16,404 nucleotides of DNA, taken from NCBI GenBank assembly GCA_028293225.1, contig JAQGPE010000059.1, positions 1-16,404 on the forward strand. Reading direction: 5' to 3'. Under the pieces are notes generated by a model. The model ran no database searches. It had not been told where the DNA came from and saw nothing but the letters and a program-made list of their open reading frames with translations. Origin of the DNA: Akkermansiaceae bacterium (GTDB lineage Bacteria; Verrucomicrobiota; Verrucomicrobiia; Verrucomicrobiales; Akkermansiaceae). The translations under genes and the position numbers were made by a program. Shown one piece after another: positions 4,837-13,018 of this stretch. Position 1 is the stretch's first letter, and the number at the start of each line of letters is the position of its first letter.

Positions 4837-5863
<1,027 letters not shown>

Positions 5864-5874
<11 letters not shown>

Positions 5875-6757
5875 TCTGCTCGATCCGGATGCAGTTTCCC
5901 GCGGCGAAGCGCTGGGCCTGATGGCTCGGAAAATCGTCGAAGGTTATCGCGTGGGGGAGCACCGGTCCCCGTTCCAGGGCTTCGCGATCGAGTTCGCGCA
6001 GCACCGCGAATACGCGCCCGGCGATGACATGCGCCACCTCGACTGGAAGGTCCTGGGCCGCTCCGACCGCTACTACATCAAGCAATACGAGCAGGACACG
6101 AACTTCGTCGCCCACCTGGTGGTCGATGGCAGCGCGTCGATGAACTACGGCTCCGGGAAGCTGACCAAGCTGCACTACGCCAAGATTCTGGCCTCCTGTC
6201 TCGCCCACCTGGTGCTGCTCCAGCGCGATGCTGTGGCGCTCGCACTGGTGGACACCGCCGTCCGCGAATACCTGCCCCGCACCGACAATCTCCAGCGCAT
6301 CAATCACATCATGGACCGGCTCGCCGCCTTCCAGGCGACGGGAGAGACCCGTCTCGGCGCTGCTCTCGAGCAGGTCGCCCGGGAGGCCCGGCGGCGTGGT
6401 ATCACGGTTCTGATCAGCGATTTCTTCGACGATGAGGAAGGCCTGGCCAAAGGCCTGGAACGTCTGACTTATGCGGGGAATGAGGTGATCGTTTTCCAGA
6501 TCCTCGACCCCTACGAACTGACTTTTCCGTTCCAGGGCACGTGGCGGTTCAAGGACCTCGAAAGCACCGCCGACCTCAAGACGGTGCCGGACGACATCCG
6601 CAAGAATTACCTGAAGAACTTCGAAGAGTTCCGCACCCGCATCCGCCGCATCTGCGAGAAATACCAGGCCCACTACGTGCTGGCCGACACCAGCCGGAGC
6701 ATCGCGGAAACTCTCAGCGCCTACCTTGCCTTCCGCCAGGGCACCTACCGGAAATAG
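5864..6757 (+). CDS. DUF58 domain protein (VWA-like MoxR partner)
   Basis: This is a 297-residue protein with no signal peptide or membrane segment, so it is likely cytoplasmic. The DUF58 signature is clear: FQGFAIEFAQHREYAPGDD followed by MRHLDWKVLGRSDRYYIKQYE (residues 37-76). A VWA-like fold follows, with an intact MIDAS-type metal site DGSAS (Asp88, Ser90, Ser92) and the usual ISDFFDDEE motif near Asp186. DUF58 proteins are regular partners of MoxR ATPases and are thought to bridge the ATPase to membrane VWA proteins. Unlike many DUF58 proteins it lacks an N-terminal membrane anchor, the form typical of Bat-type operons. It starts inside the end of moxR and ends with TAG six bases before the BatA-like gene, in the same reading frame as that gene. 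Confidence 0.95.
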
Positions 6758-6763
6758 CGTGCC

Positions 6764-8890
6764 ATGAATTTCCTCAATCCTCTCATGCTGAGCGGACTGG
6801 CGGCGCTCTCGGTGCCGGTGGTCATTCATTTCCTGAACCGCTTCCGGGTCAAAACCACGGACTGGGGCGCCATGCGCTTCCTGATGGAGAGCGTCCGTCA
6901 GAACCAGCGCCGCGTGAATCTGCAGGACCTGCTGCTGCTGCTTCTGCGCCTCTTGTTAGTAGCCCTGGCCGTGCTCGCGTTTGCCCGTCCGGTCCAGAAG
7001 GCGCTTGCAGGTCTGGGTCGCGAAAGCAAGGGACCCATCGCGGCGGTGGTGCTGCTGGATAACTCCGCCAGCATGGGCCGCAGTCTTGGTGCCGAGGTCT
7101 GCTTCGATCGCGCCAAGCGCACCATCACGACCTGGGCGGACGCGCTTGACAGCCAATCTCTGGTCGGGCTTTGCCTGGTCTCGAATCGCGCCGAGCCACT
7201 GATCCCAAAGCCGGGTCCGGACCTGGGACTTTTCCGCAAGGTGCTGGGCGAAGCCGAGGTCGGCGACCGTGGTAGCGATTTGCTTCCGGGCCTGCGCCTC
7301 GCCGTGGAGAGTCTGAAGAACATCACCGGCATGCCCCGGGAGATCCGCATCTACACCGATGGCCAGGGCGCCGCGTGGCTGAAATCCGGCGAGATTCTCA
7401 AGCTTGCCACCGATCATCCGGAAATCCGCTTCATCCCGGTCGTCGTCGCGGACAAACTGACGGACAATCTGGGCATCGTCAGCGTGCGTGCGGAGAGCGG
7501 CACGGTCGCGGCCTATCAGCCCGCCCGCTTCCAGGTGGAAGTGGCCAACCACGGCGACAAGGCGGTGGAGAACGTCCGGGTGGCGCTTTCGCTGGAAAAC
7601 AACCGGTCCGCCGGGGATGCCACCATCGCCCACCTCGATCCCGGCGCGACCGCCTCGGCCGTGATCACCACCAGCTTCGCCGAGGCCGGCCCAGCCTCGG
7701 TGACCGCCTCGATCCCGGCCGATGCCTTTGCCGCGGACAACCATCGCTCGGTCGCGCTGGAGGTGGTCAGTCAGACCAATGTCCTGATCTGCGAGGAAGA
7801 CCCCGCCGCTCCGCCGATCGACCGCGATGGCTTTTATCTCGCCAACGCCGTGATTCCGCTCTCTCCGGATCAGGCCGTGCGGCACTTCATGGCGGTCACC
7901 TTCGTGAAGCCGTCCGACCTTGCTGCTGAGCTGACCAACTCCAGCAACGCGGCCGTCCAGGCAGTCTTCCTGTGCAATCCCGCCGCGCCCTCGACCGCCG
8001 ATGCCGGCGCTCTCCGCGATTACGTGCGGACCGGTGGCAGCCTGGTGATTTTCCCGGGCCCCCGGACCCTGGTGCCGGAGTGGAAGAAGAATGAGATTCT
8101 CTCCGATCTGCTGCCCGCGACACTGGGCGAACCGACTCCCGACAATGAGGAGACGCAGTCGCTGACCTGGCAGTCCGGGACTTTCAATCACCCGGTCACG
8201 GAGCTTTGGAATGATCCCGCCCAGGGCCGCCTGTCGGCCGTGAAAGTCTTCCGGCATTTTCCTCTGACGCCGAAGCCCGATCGCCGGGTGATCGCGGCAC
8301 TGTCCGATGGCGCACCGGTCGCGGTGGAAGGGAAATATGGTGAGGGTTCGGTGGTCCTTTTCGCGACCCCTGCGACCCCGGACTTGTCGAATCTGCCACT
8401 GCATCCCGCTTTCGTCCCGCTGACGCAGCGCCTGATGAGCTATGTGAACCGCAAGAACGACGCAGGGCTCGCGCTCAGTCCGGGTGAGGCTTTCCGCCGT
8501 ACGGTCCCCTCCGAATTCCGGGGTGAGGATTTCTCGGTCCAACGGCCCGACAGCGACGCAGCCCACAGTGCCGGTCAAGTCGCTGCGGACGACGGTCAGA
8601 CTTACGTCCGCTACGCCCTAACCGATAAGGCCGGCGTCTACCACGTCCGGGTCGGCCCCGATCCGCTCGCGACCTTCGCGGTGCAGCTCGACCCCGCCGA
8701 GTCGGATCTTCATCCGGTCGATCCCTCCGTCTTCGCCGCTCTGGATGCCATCAAGCCTGCTGTCACTTCCGGCCAGTCGAGCCAGATGGTCATCACCCAC
8801 GAGTACTGGGCCGCCCTGATCTGGGCGGCCGCCGCCTTCTTCGTCCTGGAGGCCCTTCTGGCCCATCGGCTCAGCCACGCCCGCGCATGA
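6764..8890 (+). CDS. BatA-like membrane protein with VWA domain
   Basis: This is a 708-residue membrane protein. The N-terminus (MNFLNPLMLSGLAALSVPVV then IHFLNRFRVK) is the BatA/aerotolerance-regulator N-terminal domain, with membrane segments at about 7-25 and 56-76. A VWA domain follows with MIDAS motif DNSAS (Asp99, Ser101, Ser103) and TDG at 198-200. Residues about 230-330 look like a CARDB-type Ig-like domain (FQVEVANHGDKAVENVRV). Residues about 350-560 contain a Rossmann-like, glutamine-amidotransferase-like region (LRDYVRTGGSLVIFPGP). A last membrane segment is at about 681-701. The middle is therefore probably extracytoplasmic. It is about twice as long as classical BatA because of the added modules, which is the PVC/Bacteroidetes layout. 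It sits 6 bases after the DUF58 gene and overlaps the next gene by 4 bases (ATGA). The VWA domain probably binds a client in a metal-dependent way. Confidence 0.9.
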   Translation: MNFLNPLMLSGLAALSVPVVIHFLNRFRVKTTDWGAMRFLMESVRQNQRRVNLQDLLLLLLRLLLVALAVLAFARPVQKALAGLGRESKGPIAAVVLLDNSASMGRSLGAEVCFDRAKRTITTWADALDSQSLVGLCLVSNRAEPLIPKPGPDLGLFRKVLGEAEVGDRGSDLLPGLRLAVESLKNITGMPREIRIYTDGQGAAWLKSGEILKLATDHPEIRFIPVVVADKLTDNLGIVSVRAESGTVAAYQPARFQVEVANHGDKAVENVRVALSLENNRSAGDATIAHLDPGATASAVITTSFAEAGPASVTASIPADAFAADNHRSVALEVVSQTNVLICEEDPAAPPIDRDGFYLANAVIPLSPDQAVRHFMAVTFVKPSDLAAELTNSSNAAVQAVFLCNPAAPSTADAGALRDYVRTGGSLVIFPGPRTLVPEWKKNEILSDLLPATLGEPTPDNEETQSLTWQSGTFNHPVTELWNDPAQGRLSAVKVFRHFPLTPKPDRRVIAALSDGAPVAVEGKYGEGSVVLFATPATPDLSNLPLHPAFVPLTQRLMSYVNRKNDAGLALSPGEAFRRTVPSEFRGEDFSVQRPDSDAAHSAGQVAADDGQTYVRYALTDKAGVYHVRVGPDPLATFAVQLDPAESDLHPVDPSVFAALDAIKPAVTSGQSSQMVITHEYWAALIWAAAAFFVLEALLAHRLSHARA

Positions 8891-10758
8891 AAGGCTTCAT
8901 TCCATCGTTGGCGAAACTGCCGGATTTCTTCGGCCCAGGCACCGCGTGGTCGCTCACTTATGAGGGCATCTCGCCGGGACGGGCCTTGGCGATCCTGGCG
9001 GTTCTGATTGCCGCGACCCTGGTCGCCTATTGGCGCTGGGCGCCTGGCGTGAAGTTGTGGAAAAAAGCCGGTTTGGTCCTGCTGCGTGTGCTGGCCTGCG
9101 TGGTCCTGGTGGCGCTGCTGGCAAAGCCGGTGCTGGTCTTCACTCTCCAGGAGCCGGTGCGGCAGCCACTGGCGGTGCTGATCGACGGCTCAGACAGCAT
9201 GACCGTGAAGGACCGTCGCGATAGTGAAGAAGACCTGAAGCGCGCGGCGATCGCGGCAGGGGATGTGGAGCCGGATGCAGGGCTCAAGGGCGCGCCACCC
9301 GCCGGAGCGGCGGAGAAGTTCGGCGGCATCCCTCGCACGGAGTTGCTCCAGCAAATCGCTCGCAATCCGAAGCTCGATCTGTGGGGCAAGCTGGCCAGGC
9401 AGTCGGATCTCTCGTTCTATCGCTTCGGCCGCAGCGCCGCCCCGATCGGCTCGACCATCTCCGAGCCGAGGGAAGCAGGTCCGGATGAAATGGCGAAGCT
9501 CTTCCAGGAAGCGCAGACGGGAGATACCGCCACCGCCATCGGCGAGTCGTTGCGCCAGGTCCTTCAGGAACCACGCCCGCAATCGCTCGGCGGCGTGCTG
9601 ATGATCACCGATGGTGAAAGCAACACCGGCGCCTCTGCCTTGGAAGCCGCGATGATCTGCAAGGAGCAGAACGTCCCGCTCTTCATCTACGGCACCGGCG
9701 TGACTTCTCCCCGGGATGTGATTGTCCAGGACATCCGCGCCCCGAAGCTGGCTTTCGCGGGCGAGCGTCTCCAGGTCAGCGCTCATGTCGGCTCGCGCGG
9801 CATGGCCGGGAAATCCGTCACCGTCGTCTTGAAGTCCGATGGTGGGGCGGTCGACCAAAAGGAGATCGTGCTCAATGACGACCGCGGCGAGGATGTCGCG
9901 CTCCACGCCGTCCCCTCGCAGGCGGGCGACCTGCGCGTGGAGATCGGCGTTCCTCCCCAGCCGGGCGAGGCTTCCGTCGAGAACAACCAGGTTTCGACCA
10001 CGGTGCGGGTGACTGATCGGAAATTCCATGTGCTGTTGCTGGAGCAGGAGCCGCGCTGGGACTTCCGCTACCTGCTCGACTACCTACAGCGCGATCCCCG
10101 CCTGGAGGTGAAGTGCGTGATGATCGATGGCGAACCGGGTCTCGACAAGATCCCCGACTCGCCCTTCCTGCCCGGCCTGCCTGACACACGCGAGGCTTAC
10201 TTTTCCTCCCAGGTCCTGATCCTCGGCGATGTCAATCCCGACGACCTGGGTGAGGCGCGCATGAAAATCATCGCCGACTGGGTGGAGGCTGGCGGCGGCA
10301 TCATCTTCCTCGCCGGACCGAACTTCAGTCCGAACGCGTATGCCGGCACGCCGCTGGAGCCGCTGCTGCCGGTTGTCCCGGACCTCCAGATTCAGAGCGA
10401 GCAGGACAGCCGCCGTTCTCCCGAGCCCTATCAGTTGCGCCTCAGCAGGCTGGGGGAGCAGTCGCCGTATCTTCAGATGGACCCGGATCCCGAGGTCAAC
10501 CGGCAGATCTGGTCGGAGTTCCCGGGAGTGCGCTGGACGGCTCCGATCCTGCGGGTGAAGCCGGGAGCCGAGGTGCTGCTGGTGGATCCGCGGCCGGAGC
10601 GCGCCGGGCGCTATGGCCTGCTGCCGGTCTTCGCCATGCAGGGCTACGGCTCCGGCACCTGCGTGTATTTCGGCACCGATGAGACCTATCGCTGGCGCAG
10701 CCGGACCGGCGAGAAGTACTACTCGATCCTGTGGGGCCAGATCATGCAGTCACTGTAG
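8887..10758 (+). CDS. Second VWA / glutamine-amidotransferase-like membrane protein, cut short by in-frame TAG
   Basis: This is a 623-residue product as read to the TAG at 10756-10758. Two membrane segments (about 32-49 and 61-79) precede a VWA domain with MIDAS DGSDS (Asp100, Ser102, Ser104) and TDG near Asp242. A charged insertion of about 65 residues follows the first MIDAS motif. Residues about 265-375 are Ig-like. Residues about 380-620 are glutamine-amidotransferase-like, with VLLLEQEPRWDFRYLLDYL and WVEAGGGIIFLAGPN. The frame continues past the TAG to 11310 with an Ig-like region and a C-terminal membrane segment, the same ending as the BatA-like neighbour. The ancestral protein was therefore almost certainly about 807 residues. 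If the TAG is real and not read through, the product lacks its last anchor. The gene starts by ATGA overlap with the preceding gene. Family assignment is good; whether it is functional is open. Confidence 0.88.
   Translation: MKGFIPSLAKLPDFFGPGTAWSLTYEGISPGRALAILAVLIAATLVAYWRWAPGVKLWKKAGLVLLRVLACVVLVALLAKPVLVFTLQEPVRQPLAVLIDGSDSMTVKDRRDSEEDLKRAAIAAGDVEPDAGLKGAPPAGAAEKFGGIPRTELLQQIARNPKLDLWGKLARQSDLSFYRFGRSAAPIGSTISEPREAGPDEMAKLFQEAQTGDTATAIGESLRQVLQEPRPQSLGGVLMITDGESNTGASALEAAMICKEQNVPLFIYGTGVTSPRDVIVQDIRAPKLAFAGERLQVSAHVGSRGMAGKSVTVVLKSDGGAVDQKEIVLNDDRGEDVALHAVPSQAGDLRVEIGVPPQPGEASVENNQVSTTVRVTDRKFHVLLLEQEPRWDFRYLLDYLQRDPRLEVKCVMIDGEPGLDKIPDSPFLPGLPDTREAYFSSQVLILGDVNPDDLGEARMKIIADWVEAGGGIIFLAGPNFSPNAYAGTPLEPLLPVVPDLQIQSEQDSRRSPEPYQLRLSRLGEQSPYLQMDPDPEVNRQIWSEFPGVRWTAPILRVKPGAEVLLVDPRPERAGRYGLLPVFAMQGYGSGTCVYFGTDETYRWRSRTGEKYYSILWGQIMQSL
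10756..10758 (+). other. In-frame amber (TAG) codon interrupting the VWA gene
   Basis: The TAG is codon 624 of the frame starting at 8887. The codons on both sides (CTG before, CTG CAG after) belong to the same open frame, with no base gained or lost. The only other TAG used as a stop in this window ends the DUF58 gene at 6755-6757. The codon lies in a near-palindrome (ACTGTAGCTGCAGT, 10752-10765), which is probably chance. One base change would restore a Ser, Leu, Trp, Gln, Lys, Glu or Tyr codon. Confidence 0.9.
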
Positions 10759-11310
10759 CTGCAGTTGCTGGAGGGCGCCTCCTCGCTCACGCAATTGAAG
10801 ACCGATCGCAAGGAGTATGCGGTCGGCGATCACGTGGTGATTTCAGGCAATTCTTACACCGAGGGCTACGATCCCTACATCGCCCCCTCGCTCGATGGGA
10901 CCATGAGCTGGGAGGCGGACGGCAAACCGGTCACCGAAGCTCTCTCACTTCACGCCACGGCGAAGAACTCCTATCGCGGCGAGTTCATCACCAAGGTTCC
11001 GGGCTCCTATACTTTCGTCACTGCCCGCGATCCGGACGGCGTGATCAAGTTCGAGGTCGTCGACATGCGCCTGGAAAAGACCCGCACCGCTCTCGACGAG
11101 CGCCTGCTGCAGGCCATGGCGGAGACGGCCGGCGGGCAGTTCCTCCGGGAAGAAGATCTCTACAAGCTGCCCGGCCTGCTGGCGGCGAAAAGCGCCACCG
11201 TCGCCACCTTCAAAAAGGTCGAGCTCTATCAGTCGGCATGGGCGCTGACTGCTCTCCTTGGCTTCCTCTTCCTCGAATGGTTCCTGCGCAAACTCGCCCG
11301 CCTCAAATGA
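10759..11310 (+). pseudogene. C-terminal part of the interrupted VWA protein (Ig-like region plus membrane anchor)
   Basis: These 183 codons follow directly in frame after the TAG. They encode an Ig-like beta-sandwich (QLKTDRKEYAVGDHVVISG, then YRGEFITKVPGSYTFVTARDP). A helical stretch follows (LDERLLQAMAETAGGQFLREEDLYKLPG) that resembles the end of VWA/amidotransferase-like proteins in PVC operons. The last part is a membrane helix, SAWALTALLGFLFLEWFL, with a positive tail. No signal peptide or convincing start exists: the earliest start-like codons are TTG at 10765 and 10795. The GGAGG at 10770-10774 is about 20 bases from the second, too far for ideal use. Base composition and coding bias do not change at the TAG, and the end sits 1 base from the next gene, so this is the tail of the upstream gene rather than a separate one. 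It would be expressed only by readthrough or re-initiation. Confidence 0.85.
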
Positions 11311-11311
11311 C

Positions 11312-13018
11312 ATGAGCAAAGAGCGCACAACTCCCGCAGCAACTCAGCCCGGCCCGGCTTTGCCCATGTCGCTGGCCGCCCTGCTCAGCGCCGTGAGCCA
11401 GCGGCACCTCCGGATCAAGGTGCGGCAGTTTCCGGCTTTAGTCGTTGCCTGCCTCTCGGTCGCCTGGCTGCTGCAGGCTCTGGTCGATCGCTATTTCCGG
11501 TTGCCTTGGAATGCTCGGGCATGGCTGCTCGGCATCGATGGCCTCGTCGTTCTGGTACTACTCTGGCAGTATGTGCTGGTGCCGGTCTATCGTCGCCTCG
11601 ACCGCCGCGGCGCGGCGCTGCTGGTGGAGCGCAAAATGCCGGAGTTCGACAGCTCGCTGATTTCCGCCGTCGAGTTCTGCGAATCCACGGACAACTTTCC
11701 GGATCGCAGCCAGCCTCTCGTGATGGGCCTTCTCGCCAAGGTAGCGGTGCAGGTGCGAAGGCCGGACATCCCGGAAAAGGTGGTCGATGCCCGCCCGCTC
11801 AGGGTCCGGGTTCGCTGGGCTTGGGCGGCGGCGGTGATCCTGATCGCATCGGCCATCTTTGCCGGCTTTCACCTTTCGTTCCTCCTCGGTCAGCGCATCT
11901 TCCTTTCGCACCTTGCTCTGCCCAGCGACACACAGGTCGCGGCGGTGACGGGTTCCTTCATGGTTGATGCCGGAACGGACGCTCCGCTGGCCGTGACAGT
12001 GACCGGAGTCATTCCTCCAACGGCTTCCCTGATCGTCACCTCGGACGGCGAGACCACGACCATACCGGTGAATCTCTCCCGGGCGGGCGTCGCCAATACC
12101 TACCGCTATACGGTGAAGAATGTTCGCCAGGCTTTCACCTATCGCTTTGCAGTCAACGACGGCGAAAGTGAGCCGGCGCGGGTGAAGGTCAACATTCCGC
12201 CGACGCTGAAAAACATCCGGTTCATCCAGACCTATCCCGACTACACCGGCCTGCCGAAAGCGGTCATGTCACCCGGCAATCTCCGTTTCATGGAGGGCTC
12301 CCGGCTGCGCATCGAAGTCGCGTCTTCGGAGCCGCTGAATACCGCTCAACTGATGATCAAGGGCGACGACCGCACGCTGTGGTTCGAAAAAACCAACGAT
12401 CCTCTGACCTACGCTTTGGAACAGACGGTCCCCGGCAAAGGCTGGAAAACGATGTCCGCCCGCCTCGACGCAGGGGAGGGGAGGATCACCTCGAACGAGC
12501 CCGTCTACCGGGTCGATCTCGTGATCGACCGGGCCCCGTCGGCCATGATGCTGCTGCCGAAAAAGGACCGGATCACCGTCACTCCCGGCAGCACCGTTCC
12601 GCTTTCCTACAAAGCCAGCGACGATTTCGGTTTCCACAGTGTGCGCCTCTGTTACCGGATTTCCCGGCCGGATGGCAGCGGCTCCCTGACACCCGCCGAG
12701 CAGGATGAAATCCAGCTGAAATTCGACCCGGCTCAGAAAGCCTTCGCTTCGAACACGGACTTTGACCTCGCCAAACTCCAACCTTCCGTAACGCCGGGTT
12801 GCTCGATCAACTGCTGGCTGGAGGTGGAGGACAACAACTCGATCAAGCACTTCGTCAAAACGGTCAGTAAGGAAAAGATCATCGCCGTCGTCTCAGAGGA
12901 AGAGAAACGCATGGAACTCCTGGAGCTGATGGGGCAACGTGCCAAAGATGTCGAACGGCTCTATGACCAGCAGCGCGCCGTGAACCAGCGCGCTGAGGAA
13001 TCCCTGCACGGAAAGTAA
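11312..13018 (+). CDS. DUF4175-like membrane protein
   Basis: This is a 568-residue protein. The start at 11312 (MSKERTTP) is preferred to an in-frame ATG at 11258, which would lie inside the preceding coding frame; 11312 leaves a 1-base gap typical of this operon. Membrane segments are at about 41-58, 71-93 and 169-192. The first cytoplasmic stretch is followed by a helix pair (AALLVERKMPEFDSSLISAVEF), as in DUF4175 proteins. The large C-terminal part is extracytoplasmic, with Ig-like beta domains, including the IQTYPDYTGLP motif and SYKASDDFGFHSVRLCYRI. The tail from about residue 525 is a charged helix that probably forms a coiled coil. Proteins of this layout commonly sit next to MoxR/VWA genes and before a long coiled-coil protein, as here. 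A structural role linking the membrane complex to the coiled-coil partner is my inference. Confidence 0.8.
   Translation: MSKERTTPAATQPGPALPMSLAALLSAVSQRHLRIKVRQFPALVVACLSVAWLLQALVDRYFRLPWNARAWLLGIDGLVVLVLLWQYVLVPVYRRLDRRGAALLVERKMPEFDSSLISAVEFCESTDNFPDRSQPLVMGLLAKVAVQVRRPDIPEKVVDARPLRVRVRWAWAAAVILIASAIFAGFHLSFLLGQRIFLSHLALPSDTQVAAVTGSFMVDAGTDAPLAVTVTGVIPPTASLIVTSDGETTTIPVNLSRAGVANTYRYTVKNVRQAFTYRFAVNDGESEPARVKVNIPPTLKNIRFIQTYPDYTGLPKAVMSPGNLRFMEGSRLRIEVASSEPLNTAQLMIKGDDRTLWFEKTNDPLTYALEQTVPGKGWKTMSARLDAGEGRITSNEPVYRVDLVIDRAPSAMMLLPKKDRITVTPGSTVPLSYKASDDFGFHSVRLCYRISRPDGSGSLTPAEQDEIQLKFDPAQKAFASNTDFDLAKLQPSVTPGCSINCWLEVEDNNSIKHFVKTVSKEKIIAVVSEEEKRMELLELMGQRAKDVERLYDQQRAVNQRAEESLHGK

Follow-up and report, generated by a model that had tools for sequence, protein, structure and literature searches.

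This locus raises the question of how a VWA-domain gene comes to carry an in-frame TAG when the sequence beyond the stop still reads as protein. The stretch analysed, hereafter the window, comprises 16,404 nucleotides and corresponds to contig C753 in a probably verrucomicrobial genome of 4.51 Mb, assembled in 820 contigs with a completeness of 61.84%. The original prediction left three options for the TAG: a fresh nonsense mutation, a sequencing or assembly error, or a readthrough site yielding a short and a long form. We favour a single, very recent nonsense mutation in an otherwise normal gene, with a probability of about 0.6, the weights given to mutation and to error being a matter of judgement. 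The lone stop is most likely ordinary, with no hidden control switch behind it.

As predicted, the TAG is codon 624 (10756–10758) of the frame opened by the ATG at 8887, and it is followed by 183 further sense codons (10759–11307) and a TGA (11308–11310), with a single base between the end of the frame and the ATG of the next gene (11312–11314). The GC content by codon position was alike upstream (0.679/0.454/0.820) and downstream (0.623/0.421/0.803) of the TAG, bearing out the claim of an unchanged composition, and family members align with the downstream part in this frame. This part is therefore coding sequence of the same gene rather than a chance open frame. On the plus strand, a GTG-started frame of 194 codons (10731–11315) runs across the C-terminal part in a different phase; since the homology sits in the frame from 8887, it probably arose by chance in GC-rich sequence.

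The MoxR-DUF58-BatA-VWA-DUF4175 cluster to which the gene belongs (Table 1) is ordinary. The PF07726, PF01882, PF07584 and VWA matches follow one another in the order of clusters of the MoxR-DUF58-BatA-VWA (Bat) type, and the order of the DUF58, BatA, VWA and DUF4175 genes is kept in the named relatives as far as their pieces reach. In all nine named loci, a single frame crosses the TAG site and a DUF4175-like gene comes next; the upstream neighbours are BatA in eight and DUF58 in six of the nine, the other pieces being cut. The cluster resembles the Bat or MoxR-DUF58-VWA clusters (Bacteroides aerotolerance type and spirochaete relatives) in having, side by side, a MoxR ATPase, a DUF58 protein, a BatA-like protein bearing the TIGR02226 double membrane anchor and a second VWA protein. 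Unlike in those clusters, the VWA protein here has a DUF7408/DUF4350-like region (Pfam matches scoring less than the curated thresholds) as well as a C-terminal extension, after which the DUF4175-like gene follows, and in this one sequence it is interrupted by the TAG. A profile of 57 homologues, with the window protein left out, matched the BatB VWA domain structure 3ibs (E 3e-7); the solved sequences matched by this profile numbered nine, with VWA chains among them, and none of these matches extended past profile position 377. According to an excerpt of PMC3557215, no specific function had been shown for the Bat proteins of spirochaetes.

Table 1. Coordinates of the features of the cluster in the window
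Feature	Position	Strand	Evidence
MoxR-type AAA ATPase gene	4837..5874	+	PF07726 AAA_3, 206 bits
DUF58 gene, TAG stop	5864..6757	+	PF01882
BatA-like gene, N-terminal double membrane anchor and C-terminal helix	6764..8890	+	PF07584, TIGR02226 two_anch
VWA-domain gene, 623 codons then TAG	8887..10758	+	PF00092 VWA, 24.0 bits (cut-off 23.8)
Two N-terminal membrane helices of the VWA protein, residues 28–46 and 61–79	8968..9123	+	Kyte-Doolittle, 19 residues
In-frame TAG, codon 624	10756..10758	+	Ser/Ala in 117/117 listed homologues covering the column
Remainder of the VWA gene, 183 codons, weakly hydrophobic last segment, TGA	10759..11310	+	Same-frame homology
DUF4175-like gene	11312..13018	+	25.9 bits, just under the curated cut-off of 27.3

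In the protein search, scores were computed for the 7997 candidates with the most shared words, which yielded 194 matches; the alignment consisted of the window gene and 119 homologues (the best 120 of the 194, its own entry excluded). At the TAG column, 61 of these homologues have a serine, 56 an alanine and two a gap, the latter being P0090, which ends earlier, and P0108, which seems to be frame-shifted at its end. Conservation is high in the flanking stretch WGQIMQSL-LQLLEGAS. Among the 45 relative loci given, L033 had no alignment at the site, and the 44 readable loci, which correspond to about 36 distinct places, some being duplicates, all had a sense codon, although the alignment at the site is doubtful for loci of less than about 28% identity. 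The check proposed on close relatives thus gave a sense codon throughout, with a TAG stop in none of the 117 listed proteins covering the column and none of the 44 loci read. A query with the C-terminal part gave matches in 23 of 38 genomes, including the window's own, and the 31 matches outside the window were all without an internal stop, in open frames of 339 to 1056 aa. The closest other homologue among the matches listed, P0002, is 81% identical, and the closest listed homologue with a genus-level source name is P0004 from Luteolibacter sp. Populi (73%). Together with L038 from Haloferula sp. BvORR071, P0004 was matched both before and after the site (first-part identity to the window of 73% for P0004 and about 52% for L038); unlike the window gene, these Verrucomicrobia orthologues are intact, with an uninterrupted frame and an Ala (P0004) or a Ser (L038) at the site. 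A search of the same genome for a second copy of the TAG site returned the window alone. Two distant VWA paralogues with open frames are present in this genome, L002 (31% identity, contig C391) and L003 (25%, contig C182), and C391 also carries a BatA-like N-terminal stretch.

The part after the stop shows no sign of decay. Identity to P0002 was 498/614 (81.1%) before the stop and 144/183 (78.7%) after it, and the corresponding values were 72.7 and 72.1% for P0004, 71.9 and 73.2% for P0005, and 71.8 and 73.8% for P0006, the last two rising slightly after the stop. The comparison with P0003 gave the largest drop among the 36 pairs compared, from 77.5 to 70.5%; P0002 and P0003 are 78.4 and 73.2% identical to each other before and after the site. 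Changes restricted to one lineage, counted where five outgroups agree, were few: the window has 7 before and 3 after the stop, whereas P0002 has 18 before and 4 after it (Fisher p 0.65). Relaxation beyond the stop is not evident, and the TAG is therefore very recent, an error or read through; a functional long form would also be expected to show no decay. A stop private to one sequence with an undecayed downstream frame is what a recent nonsense mutation should leave, and this option of the original prediction fits the data.

The main rival to recent mutation is a base error in this assembly of 820 contigs, in which case the TAG would be a miscalled base or the base of a minority strain and the gene would be whole in the living population. 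This explanation, also among those first proposed, fits too, and we regard it as a real though clearly less likely possibility. An assembly error would look identical to a recent mutation, and the stop is known from one assembly; the assembly is fragmentary and incomplete, the part beyond the stop is undecayed, and none of the relatives examined shares the stop. A codon-usage scan for frames continuing through a stop, covering 101 of the 820 contigs (635,313 bases), gave 4, 11 and 15 matches at three thresholds, with a sensitivity at random interior positions of long frames of 473, 791 and 874 of 1515 (31, 52 and 58%). In 12 of the 15 matches, an ATG lies 2 to 8 codons past the stop, like in ordinary neighbouring genes, and the other three are the window TAG, L103 (passing just the loosest threshold, with an ATG 27 codons on) and a frame on the minus strand, antisense to the BatA gene; the 14 matches other than the TAG rest on codon usage, save for the known DUF58-BatA pair at 6755. 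The TAG was therefore the sole clear break of its kind in the 635 kb scanned at 31–58% sensitivity, a result that also favours an error. However, no other frame taken as a gene in the window is interrupted (of these, the DUF58, BatA and DUF4175 genes were compared with relatives), so the quality of the contig is not low overall. Moreover, the P0001 cluster has three member sequences on one contig, which may or may not be independent.

Leaky or regulated readthrough of the UAG, producing a short and a long form, is very unlikely. Beyond the UAG the frame stays open and shows no decay. A C directly follows the UAG, and this C is the only positive support for recoding. In yeast, a C at position +4 makes all three stops leakier, and misreading of UAG by tRNA-Gln is possible in E. 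coli (both cited in an excerpt of PMC5289835); a tRNA-Gln(CTG) is present in this genome. However, functional readthrough should conserve the stop together with the extension, and here the extension is conserved and the stop is private, with relatives differing by eye at silent positions in the junction sequences. Nor did RNA folding reveal a clear structure, with z values of −1.77 for the 100 bases that follow the stop (with 9 of 200 shuffles equally or more stable), +1.31 for the stretch around the stop and +0.28 for the 60 bases after it, and a downstream RNA element was set aside. UAG is read by RF1, and prfA is present (464 bits, cut-off 423). TAG terminates 54 of the 347 stop-terminated, non-overlapping frames of at least 200 codons in the 101 contigs sampled, and genome-wide recoding of TAG was rejected, since it is a regular terminator in a genome encoding RF1. 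The suppressor tRNA that had been proposed as a check was not found, none of the 29 tRNAs read by ARAGORN in the 30 loci matched with Rfam having a CTA anticodon; a PylS search (in which, of 14 control genomes, 13 rang and one was over the cut-off) gave no match, and pyrrolysine decoding was set aside. Both absences are weak evidence, because the genome is only 62% complete. The locus thus shares with amber recoding by pyrrolysine, suppressor tRNA or programmed UAG readthrough an in-frame UAG and a coding extension, but differs in the presence of RF1, in a stop not shared with relatives, and in the lack of PylS and of a CTA tRNA in the portion of the genome assembled, and the readthrough option of the original prediction received little support. 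A split of the gene in two, with the C-terminal part translated from its own start, is still less credible. In-frame start-type codons do follow the TAG (TTG 10765, GTG 10834, ATG 10903 and others), with a weak GGGA ahead of the ATG at 10903, but by eye none of them has a strong ribosome-binding site. The C-terminal query retrieved 12 proteins of 108 to 313 aa, and five of the seven read begin upstream and run through the site, the other two (P0125 and P0132) beginning further in. All 31 genome matches sit in open frames of 339 aa or more, and two conserved genes with their own starts, which had been named as the case that would overturn the prediction, were looked for in relatives and not seen, one frame crossing the site instead.

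On contig C663 of the same genome, two tandem genes for YrlA (Y RNA-like) were identified on the minus strand (L072:1586–1720 and L072:1740–1856), scoring 72.0 and 73.9 bits against a gathering score of 69. The first of them is overlapped by a match to the tRNA family (31.3 bits), at a place where ARAGORN reads no tRNA.

One listed homologue ends close to the TAG site. P0050 (627 aa, 57% identical), a jgi protein cluster with eight members on three contigs, ends at most two codons from it, as seen in the protein sequence. Since its seven nearest clusters over 99–100% of its length (71–81% identical) are 801–812 aa long, and since P0078 (82% identical to P0050 over 83%, 707 aa) is not cut at the TAG site, P0050 is the only listed protein ending here. 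Its end may be a contig effect or a real stop. Four other listed homologues that are short at the C-terminus end elsewhere, at positions corresponding to window residues 604, 656, 658 and 724. It is doubtful in the extreme that the vicinity of codon 624, where the DUF7408/DUF4350-like region gives way to the C-terminal extension, is a point at which VWA proteins of these clusters recurrently lose this extension, by the TAG in the window and independently in the P0050 lineage; were this so, the truncated proteins would be functional variants with a different partner or role.

Under the preferred reading, a recent nonsense mutation, the strain or population behind the assembly would carry the change, and ribosomes would stop at codon 624, with RF1 reading the UAG. 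We infer that a protein of 623 residues would be released, keeping both N-terminal membrane helices along with the VWA domain and the DUF7408/DUF4350-like region and missing the last 183 residues. About 550 bases ahead of the start of the next gene (11312) would then be left untranslated, and for this reason that gene may be made in smaller amounts. The stop probably means little beyond this genome, and where a fragmentary assembly shows a single in-frame stop, relatives and reads should be consulted before recoding is claimed. If real, the TAG would be a natural truncation, within this population, of a MoxR-cluster VWA protein about which little is understood.

The short product would still be anchored, since both N-terminal helices precede the stop, and the proposed alternation between anchored and unanchored forms is therefore unlikely. 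The final membrane helix predicted for the long form held in part: a hydrophobic segment is present, but it is weak and, like that of P0002, falls below the cut-off used for helices (Kyte-Doolittle 1.6 over 19 residues). The Ig-like region placed after the TAG found no Pfam support, with no family matching 10765–11307. In the BatA-like neighbour, the C-terminal anchor that had been put forward as the model for the VWA protein was recovered, as its helix 682–700 passes the same cut-off.
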